DNA of 64,000 nt. Source: Natrialba sp. SSL1 (GTDB lineage: Archaea; Halobacteriota; Halobacteria; Halobacteriales; Natrialbaceae). The number at the start of each line of letters is the position of its first letter. The stretch's first letter is position 1. The stretch spans positions 1 through 64,000 of the forward strand of contig NZ_MASN01000011.1 of NCBI RefSeq assembly GCF_001861355.1. Reading direction: 5' to 3'. Made by a program: the position numbers and the translations under genes. Positions 15,087 to 45,756 of this stretch are shown piece by piece. Below the pieces are notes generated by a model, which searched no databases, was not told the origin of the DNA, and saw only the letters and a program-made list of their open reading frames with translations.

Positions 15087-16895
15087 TCATCTACCGCTTG
15101 ACTGAATAGAATATAACTCGGCGTACTGTCCATTATTGTCGATTAGCTCTTCATGTGTGCCAGTTTCAATAATCTCGCCGGACTCTACAGTGTAGATTTG
15201 GTCGGCATTTTTCACTGTGGACAGCCGGTGTGCAATCCCAACCATTGCGTACTCTTGATCCATACTCTCGATAGACTCTTGCACCTGCTGTTCTAGATTC
15301 GAGTCAAGGTCGCTTGTTGCCTCGTCAAGCACCAGTACTTCCGCGTTCTTCAACAGTGCCCGCCCCAGTGCCACTCGCTGTTTTTGTCCACCGGACAACC
15401 GAACTCCGTTGTCACCGAGTTGCGTCTCGTAACCGTCGGGTAGTTCCTTAAGGAATTCGTCCAACTTCGCCATTTCACAGACCCGATCGATCTCCGCATC
15501 GCTTACGTCCCGATTACCGATTGTCAGGTTGTACCGTAGCGTGTCGTTGAAAATGAAAGGGTTCTGACGCACGACCGCGATCTTCGACCGCCATTCGTCA
15601 ACGTCCATCTCGTGGATCGATCGACTGTTCGCCCGTATCTCTCCCGAGTCCGGTTCGTACATCCGCGCCAGCAGTGAGACAACCGTCGATTTCCCGGCAC
15701 CCGACTGGCCGACGAAGCCGATGAATTCGCCTTTCTCGAACTCGAGTGAAACGCCTGAGAGGGCCTCTTCGTCTTGTCCCTGGTACGAGAAGTGAATATT
15801 GTCAATATTGATATGTTCGATTTCCGTTGGCACCGGTTCGTTCGCAGTGCTGGGTTCTCGGCTTGCTTCGAGTTCCTCAATGAACTGCTGCGTGCGAACG
15901 AGATGTGGTAGATTATTCTCTACCCTGTAAGCCAACTTGTTCACCTGGCTTGCCTTCGGCCCAAGACGGAACATCGCAAAAAGGAAGATACCGAGCGCGC
16001 TGAGTGACATGTCCGCAAAGGTGATTGCGAGGTAAATCAACACAAAGACCGACACCGCAGTTAACAGGTTGTAGAAACTGTTAATCCCCTGTTCATTCCG
16101 CCGGAGCTTGATACTTGACTGGGCGAAGTTGTTTACCGAACTGAGGAAGTCATTGTACAATTCCGATTTCAAGTCAAAGAGCTTAGTGTCGCGAATCCCT
16201 TGTGTTCCGGCCTGTGCGGCTTCCTGTAGACGCTCGTTTGCCTCCGCAACTTGATCTCCGAGTTCGTAACCCGGCTCAAGGACGCGACGGAATAGCACCG
16301 AAAACCCGCCGAGGAATACGAGTGCAAACAACGTTAGAAATGGTGCGAGAACGAGCGCAACAAGTAGATACATCAGAGCTAGAAGTGATTGTTCAATCAA
16401 GTCTACGACGTACTTGACCGTTCGACCAGCGTACTCCGCCTGCGTCACGATCGCGTTCAGGATATCGTCGGATCCTTCCCGGTCGAAATATTCAATCCGT
16501 GCGTCGAGTGCGTTGTCGAACGCCTGCTTCTGAATCTCGCGCGTATAGTCGATCACCAAGGCCTCTCGCATCCAGCGGACGAAGAACGTCACCGTCCACC
16601 GGACAGCCAACACGACACTCACACCGGTTACCACGAGACCGAGCGTGAATGGAATTCCGAGGAAGTCGTAGGCCATCACGAACAACTCCATGACTCCATC
16701 GGCTTCCGCAGCAGGATCACCAGGAGACTGAACGATCTCCACGATGGGCATGATAAAACCTAATCCGACACCTTCTAGCAACGCAGCAAAGACACCACCA
16801 AAGATAATTGCAACTACGAGCTTGGGGCGATATTGCGCAACACGAACGAGTGCGCGCAATTGCTCACGTCGACTTATCGTCTCCCCGTCAGTCAT
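15087..16895 (-). CDS. ABC exporter/flippase, fused permease and ATPase
   Basis: A 602-residue half-transporter with an N-terminal six-helix membrane domain (residues about 25-330) and a C-terminal nucleotide-binding domain with Walker A GQSGAGKST, signature LSGGQKQR, Walker B VLVLDEATSDLD and a switch histidine in IAHRLSTV. It resembles MsbA/PglK-type lipid or lipid-linked-oligosaccharide flippases, and its place at the end of the glycan island suggests export of the lipid-linked glycan. Start chosen at MTDGETISRREQLRAL (16895); the frame stays open to 17051, but that extension lacks family resemblance. It probably acts as a homodimer. Confidence 0.85.
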   Translation of the reverse strand: MTDGETISRREQLRALVRVAQYRPKLVVAIIFGGVFAALLEGVGLGFIMPIVEIVQSPGDPAAEADGVMELFVMAYDFLGIPFTLGLVVTGVSVVLAVRWTVTFFVRWMREALVIDYTREIQKQAFDNALDARIEYFDREGSDDILNAIVTQAEYAGRTVKYVVDLIEQSLLALMYLLVALVLAPFLTLFALVFLGGFSVLFRRVLEPGYELGDQVAEANERLQEAAQAGTQGIRDTKLFDLKSELYNDFLSSVNNFAQSSIKLRRNEQGINSFYNLLTAVSVFVLIYLAITFADMSLSALGIFLFAMFRLGPKASQVNKLAYRVENNLPHLVRTQQFIEELEASREPSTANEPVPTEIEHINIDNIHFSYQGQDEEALSGVSLEFEKGEFIGFVGQSGAGKSTVVSLLARMYEPDSGEIRANSRSIHEMDVDEWRSKIAVVRQNPFIFNDTLRYNLTIGNRDVSDAEIDRVCEMAKLDEFLKELPDGYETQLGDNGVRLSGGQKQRVALGRALLKNAEVLVLDEATSDLDSNLEQQVQESIESMDQEYAMVGIAHRLSTVKNADQIYTVESGEIIETGTHEELIDNNGQYAELYSIQSSGR

Positions 16896-35536: not shown

Positions 35537-36496
35537 CTATACGGGCGAAACGTAACCCGAGATGCGGGCGTCATGGTCCCAGTAGTCCGGGTAGAAGTCG
35601 AAGTCCCGGTACTTTGCGGAGTACTTGAACTTCCCGTGCCCGAGTACGCGGTACTGAGCCGGCGGCTCCAGCCCCATGCTGACGAAGCAATCGCGGATTT
35701 GGCAGACGAGAGTGTGGCCGACGTGGCGACGGAACTGCTCCCGGGTAAAGCCCATCGGAAGGGTTTCGATCCGAGCGTCAGGCTCGCGATCGATTGGGTC
35801 CTCGCCCTCGATAGTTTTGTAGCCGTCGGGCTCGCTGTACATCGTGTCGAGCCCGGAGACGTCCGCGATCGTCAGATCAGTGAACGAAACGTCGGGGTCG
35901 AACTCGTCGTCGGTCTGGTCGGTACCGCCACCGATGAGTGACCGAGCTTTGGCGACGAGTCCCTGGCCTTGCGCGTCGACGAGTTCCTGAATGGTGTCTT
36001 CTCCGAGGACATCAACCGCTGGGCGCTGCAGTTGCTCCTGAATGGCGTCGAGATCCTCCGCCAGGTAGATATTTTGCTTGTAGACGATGAACTCCTCGTT
36101 GTAGACATCGTTCGGGATGTCGAGCACCGGCATCACGTCCGATCGCTCGTGACTGGCCATCTGCTCGTACAGCATTCCGAAGTACTCGTCGAACTGCTCA
36201 TCCTCAAGGTCAAGGACAGCCATCAGGGCAGCCGCGATGCGGTCGGGGTTGTCCGGATTCGGGACCGTGTCGTAGCCCGTCTCGCGGTAGACGTGCCAGC
36301 GGGCGAAGCGGCGGGCCTGAGAGAAGCTTTCGTCTTCTTCGAAGGTACGGTCTTTGGGATCGTCGGGATAATCGTCTGCTTCATGACCCAATATTTCCCC
36401 ATCTTCCTCCATCACGATGAGGTGATCGTACCCATAGTTGTCAACTAAGGTAACTGCCAGTCCTTCCTCAAACTCCCCCTCAAATGTTGCATCCAT
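35537..36496 (-). CDS. Hypothetical protein coupled to the DUF4157 gene
   Basis: A 319-residue, very acidic soluble protein with no membrane segment and no motif I recognise. Notable stretches are DESFSQARRFARWHVYRETG near residue 55, ALMAVLDLEDEQFDEYFGML near 90, and a C-terminal aromatic region YRVLGHGKFKYSAKYRDFDF. It starts 2 bases after the stop of the DUF4157 gene, so the two are cotranscribed and probably work together, for example as effector and immunity or carrier protein; this is inferred from position only. Confidence 0.6.
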   Translation of the reverse strand: MDATFEGEFEEGLAVTLVDNYGYDHLIVMEEDGEILGHEADDYPDDPKDRTFEEDESFSQARRFARWHVYRETGYDTVPNPDNPDRIAAALMAVLDLEDEQFDEYFGMLYEQMASHERSDVMPVLDIPNDVYNEEFIVYKQNIYLAEDLDAIQEQLQRPAVDVLGEDTIQELVDAQGQGLVAKARSLIGGGTDQTDDEFDPDVSFTDLTIADVSGLDTMYSEPDGYKTIEGEDPIDREPDARIETLPMGFTREQFRRHVGHTLVCQIRDCFVSMGLEPPAQYRVLGHGKFKYSAKYRDFDFYPDYWDHDARISGYVSPV

Positions 36497-36498
36497 CG

Positions 36499-37701
36499 TT
36501 ATTTGATGACTTTTTCTCGAATCGAGCTAGTGATCGACTGATCGCCTTTACTCTCCGCGTCGTATTGCTCTTCCTCGTCTATTTCGTCCCCGGAGAACCG
36601 CTCTTTGGCTCGGTCCCAGAGGCTTTTCGCACCAGTACTGGCGGTACCGACACCGACGGCCATCAGGCTCGCGGCCATCGCGGGGGCGGCCAGTTCCGGA
36701 TTCATCGCAGTCTCGGAAAGCCCCTCCTGAAGGGCAGGTTCCATACCCGCTCGGCCGAGCGCGATGGCTCCGGCTCCGATGCCACCGGCGGCGAGGCCAG
36801 CGGTTTTCTCTCCCAGACCGGAGTGGACCTCGTCCTCGAGGGAGGTCAGCGAGGACTGGGTCTGTTCGATGGTCTGACTGTTTTCACTGACCTGCTCGCG
36901 AAGCTCGCTGACCTCGTCGACGAGGTCACTGATTCCCTTGTAGTTGTTCTCGACGCTGACCTCAGCAGGAGTCCGCTGCACGTGTACGTCCGTCCCCATC
37001 CGATTGACCACCAGCGGGCCCTTACCGGAGAGTGCCTGCTTCGCCGCCTCGTCGGCTTTCCGTTCTAACTGCGGATCGGGATCGATCTCCAAATCTGCAC
37101 CCTCCTGGGGCATCATGCTGATTGTCGCACCGCCATTCTGCTGTTTGACGTGCGCCAGCTCGTGGGCCAACAGATGCTGTCCCTCCGGACTCTCGGTATC
37201 GTACTCGCCCGAATTGAATACAATATCGTTCCCGCAGGTGAACGCCTTCGCGTCGATCGCCTCAGCCGCTTCGGCGGCTTTCGCACCAGTATGAACACGG
37301 ACGTTCGAGAAATCGGCGTCCATGCGCTCCTCGAGTGCACGCTGAATCGGACTGTCCAACGGCGTCCCTCCCTGACCGAGCACGTCAAGGACTGTGTCGG
37401 GAACCTCCTCCTGCGTGGTATCGGTCCCCTCGAGTGCACGCTGAATCTGTGCGTCGGCACCAGTGGGTAGCGGCTCGAAGTCGGGCGTGTTCGACCCGGC
37501 CATCGCGTTGAATCCTTCAGGCTGGCCGGTCAAGGCGTTGATATCGTTGCCGATGCCCTGATCGACTGCCGCGGTTCCGGTCAGTGGCCCACCCTTCTTC
37601 GATCGAGTCGAACTCGAGGAGCGACGTTTCGTCTGTGATTCTGTCGACTCGTCGGCGTCGGTCGACTTCGATGCTCGTTTGCGTGTCCGCTTTCGTCCCA
37701 T
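36499..37701 (-). CDS. DUF4157 (eCIS core domain) protein
   Basis: A 400-residue protein. The first 35 residues are basic and polar. Residues 110-190 are a DUF4157 domain: two IQRALE boxes (86-91, 119-124), then DADFSNVRVHTGAKAAEAAE, DAKAFTCGNDIVFNSGEYD and LLAHELAHVKQQ with the metal motif HELAH (180-184). DUF4157 proteins are associated with extracellular contractile injection systems, where the domain marks cargo or acts as a peptidase. Residues 240-285 are coiled-coil, and 300-355 are rich in Gly/Ala with hydrophobic stretches that could insert in a membrane. No eCIS structural gene (sheath, tube, baseplate, AAA ATPase) is in this window, so the partner machine must be elsewhere or absent. 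Confidence 0.8.
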   Translation of the reverse strand: MGRKRTRKRASKSTDADESTESQTKRRSSSSTRSKKGGPLTGTAAVDQGIGNDINALTGQPEGFNAMAGSNTPDFEPLPTGADAQIQRALEGTDTTQEEVPDTVLDVLGQGGTPLDSPIQRALEERMDADFSNVRVHTGAKAAEAAEAIDAKAFTCGNDIVFNSGEYDTESPEGQHLLAHELAHVKQQNGGATISMMPQEGADLEIDPDPQLERKADEAAKQALSGKGPLVVNRMGTDVHVQRTPAEVSVENNYKGISDLVDEVSELREQVSENSQTIEQTQSSLTSLEDEVHSGLGEKTAGLAAGGIGAGAIALGRAGMEPALQEGLSETAMNPELAAPAMAASLMAVGVGTASTGAKSLWDRAKERFSGDEIDEEEQYDAESKGDQSITSSIREKVIK

Positions 37702-38428: not shown

Positions 38429-38927
38429 ACTCCTCTCACACGTCCTCATCGCGTACGCGCTGTTCACCGTCGCGAGCTGGCGACTCGAGTGGCTCACGAA
38501 ACGCTGGGTTGCGATCGGGATGATCGGGGCCCTCCTCCCGGACCTCAACCGGATCGGCATGTTCGTCGATGACGCCACCATCGAGACGACTCTGGGCGTC
38601 CCCTTCGGGATCGACGCACTCCACACGCTTGGAGGAGTCATCCTCCTCTCCGGTATCGGCGCGCTGGTCCTCACGGAAGCCCACAGACGCGCCTTCGGCG
38701 TCCTCCTCGCAGGCGCACTCTCACACCTCCTCACGGACGGCCTCAAAGCCTACGCGGACGCCGAAGCCGGTGCCTGGCTCTACCCGTTCACGTGGTACCG
38801 TCATCCGACGCCAAATCTGTACGTCTCTGCGGACCAGGGCGTCCTCCTCGTCACCGGACTCCTCGCAATAACAGTCTTCCTCGTCGACTACCGACTCACC
38901 GCCACACAGTCACCCACAGATCCCTGA
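38421..38927 (+). CDS. YdjM/DUF457-type membrane-bound metal-dependent hydrolase
   Basis: A 168-residue membrane protein. It contains a helix with the conserved LLPDLNRI, the box GIDALHTLGG and the later SHLLTDGLKAYADAEAGAWL, with histidine and aspartate residues spaced as in the YdjM-like family. Four hydrophobic segments are visible. Biochemical substrates are not known. Overlaps the upstream OB-like gene by 8 bases, and overlaps the convergent glycosylphosphotransferase gene by 32 bases at the 3' end. Confidence 0.72.
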   Translation: MTELLSHVLIAYALFTVASWRLEWLTKRWVAIGMIGALLPDLNRIGMFVDDATIETTLGVPFGIDALHTLGGVILLSGIGALVLTEAHRRAFGVLLAGALSHLLTDGLKAYADAEAGAWLYPFTWYRHPTPNLYVSADQGVLLVTGLLAITVFLVDYRLTATQSPTDP

Positions 38928-40338
38928 CCACGCCCCAGCACTGGCGGATCACGAGCTTCAGATCCAACCAGAACGACTGGCGGCGGATGTACTCGAGATC
39001 GTATCGCAGTTTCGTCTGAGGATCGGTACTCTTTGCACCGTTGACCTGCGCCAACCCGGTCAGCCCCGGCTTGACGAACCAGCGCTTGCGCCAGGCGGGA
39101 GCATCTTCCTCTAACAAGACCTCCTCTTCGGTCCAGGCGGCACGCGGTCCGACGACGCTCATATCGCCGCGCAGAATCGACCACAACTGTGGTAATTCGT
39201 CGAGATGCGTTTTCCGTAAGAAACGCCCGACGCGCGTAATCCGGTCGTTCTCTGTATCAGATGAGGGCACGGCAGACTCTCCTTCGGGAACCATGGTTCG
39301 GAACTTATAGACGGGAAACGTCTCTCCGAAACCAGCCGTACGATCTTGACTGTACAGTACTGGTCCCGGACTATCGAGTTTGATCGCGAGCGAGATCGCC
39401 GCGATCAACGGGATAGCCAGAAACAGTCCGGCAAGTGCGAAGACCACGTCAAAAACGCGCTTGAAGAGGTGATCCATCGGGTCCCACGGCTCGATTTCGA
39501 CCTCGACGAGTTGGCCAATGGTCCCATCCGTCGCCAGCACGCGGTCGGCATACTTGCGATGAACACGGACGTCCACGCCGTGGTCGTGACAGGCATCAAG
39601 CGCACCAAAGAACTCGGCACGGTCGGCGTGCCGGAACGCCAGGACGACAGTATCGATATCGTACTCTAGCAACACCGTTTCGAGGCGTGAGAGTCCGCCG
39701 ATACGTTCGAGACCACCGAGGTGATTAAATGGAGCATCGGCTGACGCGGTCTCCCCACTCTGCTGAAGGGCGAGTCCGCCGTCCGCAGCGGGTTCCCCAT
39801 CACGGTGGAGCGAAAGCACTGACGGACAGAGATAACCGAGGATCGGCATCGAAATCGACGCCGAAATCCCGTTCATCTGCTCGAGGTCGTCACCGACGAG
39901 TAACAGTCGGTCGGGATCGCGAGTCGGACGGCGACGGATCCAGACGAACCAGAGCGGGAGCACAGCCGTGAGCAGTCCGATTGTCATGACGAGTGTCGCT
40001 CGCGGGAGTCGGTACGACCAGTTGAAGTAGCCCAGTGATGCGAGTGCAAAGCCGGCAACGAGTACGCGTTTCTGGGTGAGAAAAATCGTATCTAGCACAC
40101 GGCGGGGCCTGGGCTTGTACAGTGGGAGCAGACAGCCAATAACTGCGAGTACTGTCAGTAGTAACGCCCAGGAGAACGCCCCACCAGAGAGCACTATTAC
40201 CTCAAGCCGGTTGAACACCGGTATGTGGGTCGTGAAGAGCAACTGCATCGTCGGATGGTTCGCAACCGCAAGTGCGATTGTCGTGAGGGCAACGACACCA
40301 GCGACACTCGCCAGGCGGTACTGCCAGCCAGTCAACAT
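38896..40338 (-). CDS. Polyprenyl (dolichyl) glycosylphosphotransferase
   Basis: A 480-residue enzyme of the WbaP/WcaJ-like bacterial sugar transferase family. The N-terminal part has four membrane helices (residues 8-130), then a cytosolic CoA-binding-like domain. Near residue 295 comes VFALAGLFLAIPLIAAISLA, followed by KLDSPGPVLYSQDRTAGFGE, YKFRTM and LRKTHLDELPQLWSILRGDM, which are the catalytic-domain signatures. It transfers a sugar-1-phosphate to dolichyl phosphate as the first step of a surface glycan. It stands next to the AglB-like and AglF-like genes, so it probably starts the glycan of that pathway or of the 4.5-12 kb island. Confidence 0.85.
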   Translation of the reverse strand: MLTGWQYRLASVAGVVALTTIALAVANHPTMQLLFTTHIPVFNRLEVIVLSGGAFSWALLLTVLAVIGCLLPLYKPRPRRVLDTIFLTQKRVLVAGFALASLGYFNWSYRLPRATLVMTIGLLTAVLPLWFVWIRRRPTRDPDRLLLVGDDLEQMNGISASISMPILGYLCPSVLSLHRDGEPAADGGLALQQSGETASADAPFNHLGGLERIGGLSRLETVLLEYDIDTVVLAFRHADRAEFFGALDACHDHGVDVRVHRKYADRVLATDGTIGQLVEVEIEPWDPMDHLFKRVFDVVFALAGLFLAIPLIAAISLAIKLDSPGPVLYSQDRTAGFGETFPVYKFRTMVPEGESAVPSSDTENDRITRVGRFLRKTHLDELPQLWSILRGDMSVVGPRAAWTEEEVLLEEDAPAWRKRWFVKPGLTGLAQVNGAKSTDPQTKLRYDLEYIRRQSFWLDLKLVIRQCWGVVRDLWVTVWR

Positions 40339-40568: not shown

Positions 40569-43031
40569 CTACGACATCGAGACTGACTCGCCGTTTTCCA
40601 CGTCGTCCATCGAGACCTCGAGGTCACTGTCGCCGATGGTGTACTCGCCGGGGTACGGCACCGTCACGGCAAACGAGTCGTCTTCGTCGACCGTCACCGT
40701 CCGTTCGTACGTGAACGTCTCGTCCGAGACGCTGACCTCCGTCTCGAGTGATAGCTCCTCGCCGGCCTCGCCAGAGCCGGTAATCGTCGCGCCGGGGACG
40801 ACGGCGAAGGCGGAGGCCTCCTCATCGAGGTAGATGGCCTGGTAGTGTGCCAGTCCGTCGGTCTCGTTCCCGCCAGCGCCGTGGTTCTCGTGGAGTTGTG
40901 TCTGTGCCGTCTCAGCCGGCATCTCGGATGTCCCCGGCATGACGACGTAGCCAACTCGGTCCTCGAACTGATCGTACCAGTCGTCCGGATCACTTGCGGT
41001 CCGGAACTCGTCGAAGTTGTTCGCAGCGTACCCGTAGTTACGAGCCTCTCCGTTCACGAAGTAGTTGTGCATCCGGTTATCGCCCCACAGGCTCAGAACG
41101 AAGTTGTCGGGATACTCACGGTCGGTTTCGAGTGCGTGCTCCTCGATCGCGACCGTCGCCGCAACTTCGGCGTCTCCGTGGGCAGTCTGGGCGCTCAGCG
41201 ATGGGACGAAGAACAGACTCATGCCACAGACGAGCAGGGCGATCCAGGCGAGCGTCGCGAGCTTTCGCCAATCGCGGGAAACGATAATGCTCGGCTCCTG
41301 ATCGCCGCCGTCGGCTGCAGTCTGCCGGGCGCTGGGTGAGCCGCCACGATCCGCCACATCGCCTTCTCTGAACGGACGCGGCAGCCGAGCGAGGTCGACC
41401 CACGCGAGGAGGTAGACGAGAGCGAGACCGCCCAGAACGGCCATCGGGATGGCGAGCTGTGCGGCGAATCGAACCTGGAACACGGCCAGGGCGAGCCAGA
41501 ACAGCGTGTAGACGGACAGCAACAGCCACGCCGGCTCGTATCGGCGACTGACGACCCAGATCGCCCACCCGAGGACGATAATTGCGAGGTAGAACGTCGC
41601 GCCGAGCTGAGCGAGCGGTTCGAGGATGATCGAATTCTCCGTCGCGAACAGCGACCGGAGCTCTGTCGCACCGTGGTGTTCGCGGGAGAAGACGTCGTCG
41701 GCTCGCTCCCGTAATCGAGCCCACTCAGCGGACCAGAGCGATCGGAACGCTGCGAGAGCCACACCGGTGAGCAGCACCTGGAGCCCGACGAACACGCTAA
41801 CCGGAACCGCGTGGTCGACTCGTCGCCATCCCTCACCAACCACAACGACGCCGAGTGCACCGGCCACGACGAGCGCCGGAACGACGGCGATGAACGACTC
41901 GTGCCAGCCCCAGCGGAGGTGTAAGAACGCGGCGAGAAGAGCACTCACGACGAGCCCGCCGATCAGCGGTCCGTTCGCGAGCACCGGCGACACGTCCTCG
42001 CGAGCGTCGAGTGCAGCCTTCGTGCCGACGTAGCCGGCTGCCGGGATGTACATCAGAATCGAACCACCCCAGGCGTGTGCCGAGAGTGCGAGCGCCACGC
42101 CGAACGTGACGGCGGCGAGCCAGGCCCACGGCGACCGACAGTGGCCGAGCACCGCTTCGCGTGTCGTCGGTGCGGCCGTCCGCCGCCGTCGGAGGTCCAT
42201 CGCCAGCCACGCGAGCCCCAGCAGCGTCACGCCGAGCCAGAAGTACTGGTAGAGCCGGTGCTCGAGAAAGCCCACGCCCGAGTAGACCGCGTGGACGGGC
42301 GTCAGCGCAAGCAACACGACGGACGCGACGCCGACCCGAACGTCGTCCGCCACGACGACAGCCAGCCAGTAGATGACGACACCCAGCGCCAGCGTCGAAA
42401 CCACAGGCAGCCAGGCAGCGACCATATCAGCCGCCCACTGATCGCCGCCGAGCAGTTCCGCGAAAAACCAGTTCGAGGCGTGGGTGAGCGGCCGTATCCC
42501 GCCTGCGCCGTCGGGCATCGACGTCACCACGCCCCAGTCGGTCACGCCATCCGACTCAGCGAGGAACTCGTTCATCCAGTAGCGGTAGTAGTACGGATCG
42601 TTCCCCGGCGAGACGACGTACTCGTCGCGAAACACCGAGCCGTAGTTCACCAGCCGCATCACGAACAGGAAGACGAGTGCGCCCGCGAGTGCGCCGGCCG
42701 CCCGCCAGTCGACGGTCACGATCTCGCTGAGATCACGCGAGACCGATGTGGACTCGTCCTCATCAGCGAGTTCCTCGCCGCTCAGTCCCGCTTGTACGCC
42801 CTCACGGCTCGAGACGCGGTACTCGTCGTCGTCCTTGACGACGATCCCGCGGGAAACGAGTTCGCCGAACGTCCCGGAGTCCAGCGGCAGATCCGCAAAC
42901 GCCCACGTCTCGTGATCGTCGTCGACAGCGAGGACGGTCTCGAGTGTCGCTGCTCCGTCGTCGTACTCCTCGACGAACGACGCTGCTGCGTCGGCAACTG
43001 CGTGGGGAGCCGGGTCGTCGGCGTCGGCCAT
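40569..43031 (-). CDS. STT3/AglB-like oligosaccharyltransferase, divergent
   Basis: An 820-residue GT-C enzyme. Residues 1-80 form a soluble, acidic, winged-helix-like extension. From about 105 there are roughly a dozen membrane helices. The first outer loop carries the metal-binding pattern SPGNDPYYYRYWMNEF, and a later loop has GVGFLEHRLYQYFW. The periplasmic-side domain starts near 620 and has LSLWGDNRMHNYFVNGEA in the place where classical AglB has the WWDYG motif. It should transfer a lipid-linked glycan to asparagine, but the altered acceptor motif suggests a distinct subclass or substrate. Directly downstream of an AglF-like gene. Confidence 0.8.
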   Translation of the reverse strand: MADADDPAPHAVADAAASFVEEYDDGAATLETVLAVDDDHETWAFADLPLDSGTFGELVSRGIVVKDDDEYRVSSREGVQAGLSGEELADEDESTSVSRDLSEIVTVDWRAAGALAGALVFLFVMRLVNYGSVFRDEYVVSPGNDPYYYRYWMNEFLAESDGVTDWGVVTSMPDGAGGIRPLTHASNWFFAELLGGDQWAADMVAAWLPVVSTLALGVVIYWLAVVVADDVRVGVASVVLLALTPVHAVYSGVGFLEHRLYQYFWLGVTLLGLAWLAMDLRRRRTAAPTTREAVLGHCRSPWAWLAAVTFGVALALSAHAWGGSILMYIPAAGYVGTKAALDAREDVSPVLANGPLIGGLVVSALLAAFLHLRWGWHESFIAVVPALVVAGALGVVVVGEGWRRVDHAVPVSVFVGLQVLLTGVALAAFRSLWSAEWARLRERADDVFSREHHGATELRSLFATENSIILEPLAQLGATFYLAIIVLGWAIWVVSRRYEPAWLLLSVYTLFWLALAVFQVRFAAQLAIPMAVLGGLALVYLLAWVDLARLPRPFREGDVADRGGSPSARQTAADGGDQEPSIIVSRDWRKLATLAWIALLVCGMSLFFVPSLSAQTAHGDAEVAATVAIEEHALETDREYPDNFVLSLWGDNRMHNYFVNGEARNYGYAANNFDEFRTASDPDDWYDQFEDRVGYVVMPGTSEMPAETAQTQLHENHGAGGNETDGLAHYQAIYLDEEASAFAVVPGATITGSGEAGEELSLETEVSVSDETFTYERTVTVDEDDSFAVTVPYPGEYTIGDSDLEVSMDDVENGESVSMS

Positions 43032-43139: not shown

Positions 43140-43913
43140 TCAGTCAGTCTCGAGTTCCGGCGCACCAACCGACGACCCGGGGACCTCCGCTGGTGGGACC
43201 GCTTCCCCCTGCAGGAACGCCGTCGCCTGATCTCGGTCCTCGGGATAGCCGACGTCGACGCGCCAGCCCTCCATCCGGATCGCGTCGATCGTTCGCCCGG
43301 ACTGGATCAACAGATCGATCGCGTCCGAGAGTTCGTACTCGCCGCGGTCGCTCGGCTGAACGAGCCGACACGCATGAAAGATCGCGGGCGTGAACGTGTA
43401 GAACCCGGTCATCACGAGATTCGACGGCGGGTCGTCGGGCTTTTCGACGACCTCGACGATTTCGCCGTACTCGTTCGTATCGAGCACGCCGTAGCGCGAG
43501 GCTTCCTCGTAGGGCACCTGCTCGACCAGGAACGCCGCATCTGCGCGATCTTCTTGCTGGCGGGTCACCACGTCGCCGAGGTTCGACCGGAAGACGTTAT
43601 CGCCGAGCATCAGCATGAACTCGTCCTCGACGAGCGACTCGACCTGGAGGATGGCGTGGGCGAGACCCAACTGCTCGCGCTGGTGGGCGTAGGTGATCGG
43701 CACGCCGCGGTACTCGTCGTTGTAGCGGTTGATCAACTGCTCTTTCAGGTGGCCGACGACGACGAGCAACTCCGTCGCACCGATCGCGATGAGGTTGTCG
43801 AAGACGTCCTCGATGATCGGCCGCCCGTCGACTTCGACGAGCGCCTTCGGCTTGTCGTCGGTGAGCGGCTGGAGGCGAGTCCCCTTTCCGGCTGCGAGAA
43901 CGACCGCTTGCAT
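43140..43913 (-). CDS. aglF: AglF-like sugar-1-phosphate nucleotidyltransferase
   Basis: A 257-residue NTP-transferase with the signature MQAVVLAAGKGTRLQPLTDD and the lysine box KPKALVEVDGRPIIE, then LMLGDNVF (metal aspartate) and VVEKPDDPPSN. It forms NDP-sugar from sugar-1-phosphate and NTP, and is most like glucose-1-phosphate uridylyl- or thymidylyltransferases such as haloarchaeal AglF. It supplies the donor for the glycan handled by the AglB-like protein 109 bases downstream. The start at 43913 is clear from the signature; the frame is open upstream but only as non-coding sequence. The gene symbol is by similarity. Confidence 0.8.
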   Translation of the reverse strand: MQAVVLAAGKGTRLQPLTDDKPKALVEVDGRPIIEDVFDNLIAIGATELLVVVGHLKEQLINRYNDEYRGVPITYAHQREQLGLAHAILQVESLVEDEFMLMLGDNVFRSNLGDVVTRQQEDRADAAFLVEQVPYEEASRYGVLDTNEYGEIVEVVEKPDDPPSNLVMTGFYTFTPAIFHACRLVQPSDRGEYELSDAIDLLIQSGRTIDAIRMEGWRVDVGYPEDRDQATAFLQGEAVPPAEVPGSSVGAPELETD

Positions 43914-44151: not shown

Positions 44152-45756
44152 CTACTCCGCGGACCCCGAACTCGAGTTCCCACCCTCACCGGCAATCTCT
44201 CCCAGCAGTCGCACCTCGTCTTCCTCGGTGATGTGATCGGCGTCGAAGCAAGCGCGGAGAACTTTGTGTGCGAACTCGGGATCAGCGAGACAGCCCTGGC
44301 GGTCGGACGACGCAGAACGGACGGTGGACTCGAGTGACTCGAGTTGCTCGGCGAGTGCGGCGATGTCAGTGGCGAGGGTGTGGGTGTCGATAGTGGCGTT
44401 GGTCTCTGGGTTGGTAGTGGTGGTGGCGTTGGTCTCTGGGTTGGCAGTGCTAGTGACGGTAGTTTCTGTGTTGGTGCTGGTGGTGTCGACGGTGCCTGCA
44501 CCCGCGTCTGTGCCCGACTCTGTGGAATCTATGCCGGGTTCCAGTCTCACTTCCTCCTCCGACTCGGAACCTGCAACGGAGTCGGTCGTCTCCTCCGGTT
44601 CGTCAGCCCGTGTCTGTGTCTCCTGGCGGTCGAACCGACGCGATTCGGACGTGTTTCCGGTGGATTCTTTCTCGCTGTGTTCGCTCTCATCCCCATCCCC
44701 ATCCCCAGCCCCAGCATCAGACTCAGGCTCTGGCTCAGGCTCAGACTCGGATGTAGACGTAACTACTCGCTGTCCGGTCCCATCGCCAGTCGACCCGACA
44801 GCCGCCGACCCAGAGCCAGCAGCGTCGCTGTCCACAGGCTCCGTCCCACTCTCGGTCTCGCTTTCTGTCTCGGCTCCATTCCTGTTCCCGTTTCCGTTCC
44901 CGTTTTCGTTCCCGTTCCCAGTCACCGCCGATTTCTGCTCGGACTCGAGTACCCCCTCGCCATCCACATCATCTGCAGCGCTGGAGTCGGACTCGCCAGC
45001 ACCCTCCCGATCGCGAGCCGTCTCGACTGCACCGTTCTCGTCGTCGAACAGGTTCGAGACGAACTCGCGTCGGCGCGACCACTCGAAGCCGTCGATCGAG
45101 TTCACCCGCTGGCTGATCGTCGCGCTGGTGACGCCGAGCGTCTCGGCGAGTGCGGCCTGCGTTGCGTCGGGCCGGGCGGCGATCTCCTGGAGCGTCTCGC
45201 GCTGGCGTGGCGTCAGTGCTGTCGGATCGGTCGGTGCGTCGGGTGTCGAGTCCGTCGAGTTGTCGGTGGTCATCGTCGAATCGTCGGCTGTGTCCGAGGT
45301 CGTTGATGCGTCGGCTGTTGGTGCGTCATTCATAGAAACAGGCGTCTCCCCCGCATCGTCGTTAGAATCTCGGTCGGTGGGTGGATCTGCAATGTGCTGG
45401 TTCTCGTCTTCGTCTGCGCTCGCTTCCTCCTCTGTGCCCGCGGCTACATCTCCCTCGTTGCTCACACCCACTTCCTCATCCTCACCCTCACGCTCGTCCC
45501 CATCCTCTCCGTCTGCCTCTGTCGCTCCCTGTGACGCCGACCTGTCCTCGTCACCCTCTTCGTTCCCGGTAGCGCCACTGCTCGTGCTCGCAGTACTCTC
45601 GGCTGTCGTCTCGCCCGGATCACCGTACTCCTCGAGTACCTGCTCGACGATCGAAACGGTTGCACCGCTGACCTCGTCGGCGAGTTCCTCCAGCGAGGCG
45701 TCCGGTCGGGAGGCGGCAACGTCGAGGACCTTCTTGTGGAGGATGGCACGGGGCAT
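44152..45756 (-). CDS. Two-HTH protein with long low-complexity acidic linker
   Basis: A 534-residue protein. Residues 1-45 are one HTH-like domain (MPRAILHKKVLDVAASRPDA, LEELADEVSGATVSIVEQVL). After an extremely acidic Glu/Asp/Ser/Thr linker, residues 190-240 form a second HTH (TPRQRETLQEIAARPDATQA, ALAETLGVTSATISQRVNSI). A further ~220 residues are low complexity with Gly-Asn and Thr-Asn-Pro repeats, ending in a helical segment with LADPEFAHKVLRACFDADHI. It is conserved in haloarchaea, probably as a regulator; its target is not known. Start chosen at MPRAILHKK because homologous N-termini begin there. A perfect 9-bp-arm dyad lies 72-98 bases upstream. Confidence 0.72.
   Translation of the reverse strand: MPRAILHKKVLDVAASRPDASLEELADEVSGATVSIVEQVLEEYGDPGETTAESTASTSSGATGNEEGDEDRSASQGATEADGEDGDEREGEDEEVGVSNEGDVAAGTEEEASADEDENQHIADPPTDRDSNDDAGETPVSMNDAPTADASTTSDTADDSTMTTDNSTDSTPDAPTDPTALTPRQRETLQEIAARPDATQAALAETLGVTSATISQRVNSIDGFEWSRRREFVSNLFDDENGAVETARDREGAGESDSSAADDVDGEGVLESEQKSAVTGNGNENGNGNGNRNGAETESETESGTEPVDSDAAGSGSAAVGSTGDGTGQRVVTSTSESEPEPEPESDAGAGDGDGDESEHSEKESTGNTSESRRFDRQETQTRADEPEETTDSVAGSESEEEVRLEPGIDSTESGTDAGAGTVDTTSTNTETTVTSTANPETNATTTTNPETNATIDTHTLATDIAALAEQLESLESTVRSASSDRQGCLADPEFAHKVLRACFDADHITEEDEVRLLGEIAGEGGNSSSGSAE

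Follow-up and report, generated by a model that had tools for sequence, protein, structure and literature searches.

The window, i.e., the whole stretch of 64,000 nucleotides of the Natrialba sp. SSL1 contig NZ_MASN01000011.1 that was analysed (the genome carrying it is 4.58 Mb in size), encodes an unusual relative of the archaeal oligosaccharyltransferase (OST) AglB. The gene lies between those of a polyprenyl glycosylphosphotransferase (PGT) and a sugar nucleotidyltransferase; these genes and the features of the protein are as follows.

38896–40338, minus strand: PGT (PF02397, TIGR03025 family)
40569–43031, minus strand: STT3/AglB-like membrane protein without WWDYG, 820 aa; open reading frame with an ATG start, 142 bits to TIGR04154
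40644–40793, minus strand: AglB_L1 peripheral domain (PF18079), residues 747–796; E 2.7e-9, 37.4 bits, cut-off 23.6
41064–41093, minus strand: SLWGDNRMHN, residues 647–656, aligned at the place of WWDYG
41661–41663, minus strand: Glu457, which corresponds to the TIXE glutamate in external loop 5
42255–42272, minus strand: second metal motif, GFLEHR, residues 254–259
42582–42602, minus strand: first metal motif, NDPYYYR, residues 144–150 (GND as in AfAglB)
42780–43007, minus strand: N-terminal soluble, winged-helix-like domain by AlphaFold2 model, residues 9–84, conserved in 30 sequences
43140–43913, minus strand: AglF-like sugar nucleotidyltransferase (NF041313, 418.7 bits, cut-off 400)
44152–45756, minus strand: acidic protein with a helix-turn-helix stretch (PF13412), occurring in 9 of 41 neighbourhoods that were compared

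The coding score of the frame at 40569–43031 is strong. An assembly error or a pseudogene is ruled out for this copy, as the frame is open and the aligned relatives share the motif that stands in for WWDYG. Broken copies were seen in other genomes, with three stops in G081 and split genes in G080 and G276. AglB_L1, near the C-terminus, is the sole Pfam domain above its cut-off, and a Pfam search did not list the protein under STT3 (PF02516) even at E 10; the member from Halobacterium salinarum passes the latter model (29.4 against the gathering cut-off of 24.5). With the NCBIfam model of archaeosortase A-associated OSTs (TIGR04154), the Natrialba and H. salinarum proteins score 142 and 141 bits, respectively, both below the curated cut-off of 450. 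A sequence search of the PDB with the window protein yielded no relative at E < 0.1.

Two further observations concern the remainder of the window. A protein with an eCIS_core domain (PF13699, 115 bits) is encoded at 36499–37503 on the minus strand, some 3 kb away from the STT3-like gene and next to a gene at 35537–36496 for which there was no Pfam match. The codon model that fits the 35–64 kb part gives low scores for the genes at 1–34000, which suggests a stretch of different origin.

The AlphaFold2 model, calculated on an alignment of 53 family members (A3), has a mean pLDDT of 90.7 and a pTM of 0.83. Its best solved match, at Foldseek E 5e-22, is the AfAglB structure 7e9s, which contains peptide and dolichol phosphate, and the two agree with Z 34.2 and 4.3 Å over 655 residues, the C-terminal domain included. 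The predicted protein has, over residues 106–820, the STT3-type GT-C membrane fold with a C-terminal globular domain. Bacterial PglB and the DPY19, PMT, and ArnT enzymes share the GT-C core, but their structural similarity to the model is lower (Z 19–24).

Metal binding in AfAglB involves Asp47 of the GND motif as well as Asp161 and His163 of the Asp-His-His motif; Glu360 of TIAE lies nearby, and the Ser/Thr site is formed by WWDYG and DK/MI (accessible part of PMC8342417). The DPYYYR loop pointed out in the initial annotation is indeed present, as part of NDPYYYR, and its residues N144 and D145 are invariant (53/53). The second motif follows the pattern D/E-H-H/R/Q/N: at position 257, 44 members have D and 9 have E; H258 is present in 53/53; and position 259 is occupied by H in 36, R in 9, Q in 6, and N in 2. 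For this second motif a correction is needed, as the clade of the window protein reads EHR (residues 257–259) in place of the Asp-His-His of AfAglB. Both E457 and R521 are invariant (53/53), and around E457 most members read IAE, compared with TIAE in AfAglB. Since D145, H258, and E457 are invariant and position 257 is always acidic, the catalytic set appears to be kept, most fully outside the EHR clade.

The sequon-reading part is different. There is no WWDYG anywhere in the window protein, where VLSLWGDNRMHNYFVN occupies residues 645–660, and WWD[Y/F]G is found in 0/25 and 0/53 aligned members (profile A1 of 25 members and A3, respectively), as opposed to WWDYG in 21/21 classical AglB proteins used as controls; hence the replacement reported in the initial annotation extends to the whole aligned family. 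A conserved DK was sought in residues 694–705 of the 53 sequences and none was found. Instead, the pattern S.W..[NS]R..N is matched by 25/25 members of A1 and 48/53 of A3, the remaining five being near variants, and the new signature comprises S/T647, W649 (52/53), R653 (53/53), Y655 (50/53), and N656 (53/53). Judging by these alignments, the replacement of the Ser/Thr-reading WWDYG by SxWxxNRxYN is a conserved family trait and not a chance event. We do not file the protein as AglB, because WWDYG, DK, and a TIGR04154 score over the cut-off are all missing; still, it most likely works like AglB.

The N-terminal extension of approximately 80 residues, also noted earlier, is real and conserved, and is missing in classical AglB in the joint alignment. 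Nine positions, F45, D51, S52, G53, F55, G56, E57, V59, and Y71, are invariant in 30 sequences, and AlphaFold2 predicts helices at residues 9–22, 26–39, and 52–60 followed by two strands and a helix at 76–84. Foldseek gave no match at E 0.001 for this domain. Winged-helix chains top the list of structural matches, yet the best of them reaches Z 6.3 (2.7 Å over 74 residues), and none is clearly above background; hence the description "winged-helix-like" is fair, but this fold is not proven. In two loci (L167, G254 C1:1130164–1132203; L166 in G315) the match begins at profile position 101–103, and these members therefore apparently lack the N-terminal domain.

A classical AglB is encoded in the same genome (G000:C52:242601–245264); it has WWDYG and scores 890 bits with TIGR04154. 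Both genes are present in 7/7 Natrialba genomes, with AglB spanning two frames in one of the six others; hence it is not the case that the AglB proteins of this genus all lack WWDYG and serve as the sole OST. More broadly, the unusual protein was found in 68/125 genomes of the family searched (E 1e-10 or better), and classical AglB over the cut-off in 117/125. Profile A1 matches 230/391 Halobacteria genomes at 1e-10, 215 of them strongly and 15 weakly (1e-10 to 1e-23), as counted from the listed matches. The named genomes with a member, for which 80 loci were kept of 135 confirmed relatives, include H. salinarum DSM 3754, Haloarcula, Halorubrum, Natrinema, Halorussus, and Natrialba; NCBI labels some members just "STT3 domain-containing protein". 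One genome rated 100% complete (G067, locus L101) contains the unusual protein, and its best TIGR04154 match is at 1.3e-22; possibly, it has no classical AglB at all.

We constructed a maximum-likelihood tree, without an outgroup and hence giving no root position, from 26 A3 members (out of 53) and 14 control AglB proteins (out of 21); the two groups are split at 100/100 support by long branches. The unusual proteins form a distinct haloarchaeal clade separate from AglB, and the second AglB-type enzyme suggested in the initial annotation is borne out by the coexistence of the two genes. Very long, fully supported branches between the groups rule out a recent duplication of the genome's own AglB. 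We found no description of this family in the literature on a second archaeal OST, in a search that covered mostly papers outside subscription.

The genomic neighbourhood also sets the two groups apart. PGT relatives occur in 25/39 loci of the unusual gene and in 0/21 classical aglB loci (p 3e-7), epimerases in 20/39 and 1/21, AglF-like relatives in 14/39 and 1/21, ABC exporters in 12/39 and 0/21, GT4 glycosyltransferases in 11/39 and 0/21, and UppP in 7/39 and 0/21 (p 0.08), respectively. AglB was found in 2/39 loci of the unusual gene. Among the 80 named loci, 43 contain a PGT and 13 UppP, and one neighbouring UppP was confirmed as PF02673 (BacA). PGTs of this kind yield polyprenyl-diphosphate sugars, and UppP cleaves the diphosphate remaining after transfer. 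The presence of a PGT and sometimes UppP beside the gene therefore points to a diphosphate-linked donor, which the neighbouring PGT is likely to make, although it could instead serve exopolysaccharide synthesis. In the window, an ABC exporter is encoded at 15087–16895 on the minus strand, with the same Pfam domains (PF00005 and PF00664) as the exporter that is found near the gene elsewhere; it is possibly a lipid-linked glycan flippase.

A second kind of linkage is to genes of S-layer glycoproteins. The H. salinarum DSM 3754 member (L171, 9998–12319) and the gene of the S-layer glycoprotein (TIGR04216, 1181 bits) are 3.3 kb apart. The member is clustered with the genes of GlmS, a pair of nucleotidyltransferases, and a PGT, and the arrangement in Halobacterium sp. 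CBA1126 (L170) is similar. A full-length member was found in 4/13 Halobacterium genomes, and TIGR04216 over its cut-off in 5/13, i.e., in the same four and one more. Distances were measured in 30 of about 41 genomes having both genes, namely those with coordinates listed for both. A TIGR04216 gene is found no more than 10 kb from the member in 7 of them and no more than 25 kb away in 10, compared with approximately 0.24 and 0.6 expected under an assumption of independent 3.3 Mb genomes that related genomes violate. In one genome (G175), a fragment of a second gene copy (C1:214025–214496) is situated between two S-layer genes, about 48 kb from the intact copy. No TIGR04216 S-layer protein was found at 1e-60 in 7/7 Natrialba genomes.

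Presence of the gene is also associated with asparagine at the beginning of the mature S-layer protein. With mature N-termini predicted from sequence by cutting at the A-X-A nearest to 18 residues after an M-[VI]-x-S anchor, Asn at position 1–2 was observed in 13/30 genomes with the gene and in 1/20 genomes without it (Fisher p 0.0035; genus-stratified permutation p 0.003), in a test that is largely post hoc, as the idea arose from a first parse by eye and by pattern and the rule was then changed. These 50 genomes are those with a parsable S-layer signal peptide; 12/76 rows were unparsable and dropped, genomes G142 and G337 with S-layer fragments only were left out, and the class without the gene includes genomes whose sole match was weak (1e-10 to 1e-14) and was attributed to classical AglB. 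When Asn is allowed up to position 3, the counts are 19/30 and 3/20 (stratified p 0.02), and the earlier rule of cutting at the first A-X-A, which cut Halorubrum signal peptides too early, gave 10/33 and 2/20 (p 0.10). In Halorubrum, Asn at 1–2 was seen in 6/6 genomes with the gene and 0/7 without; out of these 13, three were searched after the hypothesis had been formed, and all fitted, whereas a fourth was not parsable. Genus g60 is opposite (0/4 with the gene, 1/4 without), and Asn at 1–2 is absent in 17/30 parsed gene-bearing genomes. Because of this opposite genus and because many gene-bearing genomes have other S-layer types, the acceptor probably varies.

The gene-bearing genomes provide 14 S-layer proteins with Asn at 1–2, 11 of which have no Ser or Thr at +2. 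The different acceptor envisaged in the initial annotation is thus supported indirectly, by the loss of the Ser/Thr-pocket motifs with retention of the catalytic ones, by the linked S-layer genes, and by N-terminal asparagines mostly without Ser/Thr at +2. In DSM 3754, the predicted mature S-layer protein starts with ANAD.

According to the accessible part of PMC2952790, Asn-2 of the H. salinarum S-layer protein carries a repeat-unit glycan that is built on a diphosphate carrier and is blocked by bacitracin, the glycan is still added when Ser-4 is replaced by Val, Leu, or Asn, and a single OST gene was found in the species. Whether AglB handles the Asn-2 glycan was left as a question (in the part of PMC6591318 accessible to us), and a novel OST has been proposed for the H. 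salinarum glycan (PMC3871713, likewise accessible in part). A diphosphate donor and a relaxed sequon, as proposed here, would fit such a transferase, and the species has a member near the S-layer gene and a PGT; the link is a genomic one, with the member seen in DSM 3754 and the Asn-2 work presumably done in R1/NRC-1.

We consider it rather probable, from motifs, predicted fold, and genomic context, that the protein is a second STT3-superfamily OST, separate from AglB, which uses a diphosphate-linked donor, has a relaxed need for the sequon, and modifies asparagines of surface proteins. Like archaeal AglB (AfAglB-L, 7E9S; the AglB proteins of Haloferax and Halobacterium; TIGR04154), it has the first metal motif, a counterpart of the second that varies within the family, the loop-5 glutamate, and the AglB_L1 peripheral domain; unlike them, it lacks WWDYG and DK and has an N-terminal winged-helix-like domain and linkage to PGT and S-layer genes. 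The EHR of the window clade, at the place of the metal ligands Asp and His of AfAglB, counts against this assignment, as do the gene-bearing genomes without Asn at 1–2, the opposite trend in g60, and the negative TIGR04216 search in Natrialba. An STT3-fold GT-C transferase acting on something other than protein asparagine, i.e., a lipid, an exopolysaccharide chain (acting as polymerase or ligase), or, in the case of an O-oligosaccharyltransferase, a Ser/Thr hydroxyl, appears unlikely. Such a function would agree with a fold common to GT-C enzymes of many acceptors (ArnT, DPY19, PMT), with the assignment of the neighbouring PGT to the exopolysaccharide family TIGR03025, and with the disappearance of the sequon-reading hallmark, but it does not sit well with archaeal AglB being the best structural match, C-terminal domain included, with the retained AglB_L1 domain, or with the S-layer linkage and the Asn association.

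It is also distinctly unlikely that a second OST transfers a different glycan and still reads Asn-X-Ser/Thr, through a re-shaped pocket. While the conserved S/T647, W649, R653, and N656 could build an alternative pocket, and 3/14 S-layer proteins with Asn at 1–2 do have Ser or Thr at +2, the other 11 do not, the H. salinarum Asn-2 sequon tolerates replacement of its serine (PMC2952790, accessible part), and the mature protein of DSM 3754 is predicted to begin with ANAD. A non-catalytic relative, aiding AglB or sensing lipid-linked glycans via the winged-helix-like domain, is very improbable: the N-terminal domain looks regulatory, and EHR replaces Asp-His-His in the window clade, but the catalytic Asp and Glu are present in 53/53 members, the third residue of the second motif is His in 36/53, and aglB is nearby in just 2/39 loci.

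No member of the family was found in three genomes (g46), which we take to be Haloferax-like from their S-layer N-terminus. An OST other than AglB has been postulated for the Agl15 (low-salt) pathway of Haloferax volcanii, the glycan of which is reported on dolichol phosphate in the accessible part of the sources, unlike the donor suggested here. Since the g46 genomes lack a member and the glycan is on dolichol phosphate, the unusual family is probably not the Agl15-pathway OST, and this assignment was put aside.

Returning to a second OST with a relaxed sequon, its best reading is an enzyme that would act on S-layer N-termini in at least some lineages. The neighbouring sugar-phosphotransferase would start the glycan on polyprenyl diphosphate at the cytosolic side, the completed diphosphate-linked glycan would be flipped outward, and the STT3-type enzyme would transfer it onto a surface-protein asparagine, with UppP, in some genomes, recycling the used carrier. 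While the catalytic site of metal and glutamate appears to be kept, we propose that replacement of the WWDYG and DK pocket by SxWxxNRxYN would allow the choice of acceptors without the need for Asn-X-Ser/Thr. More tentatively, the family may represent a widespread haloarchaeal sequon-independent N-OST that attaches diphosphate-linked repeat-unit glycans to the N-terminal asparagine of S-layer proteins, and may include the missing Asn-2 enzyme of Halobacterium.

A natural STT3-type enzyme with the catalytic site and without the sequon reader would show how these two functions come apart. A second relative of AglB is common in salt-loving archaea and has so far been overlooked. It provides a concrete candidate gene for the transferase of the Halobacterium Asn-2 repeat-unit glycan, and may explain a decades-old puzzle of how the surface coat of Halobacterium is decorated.
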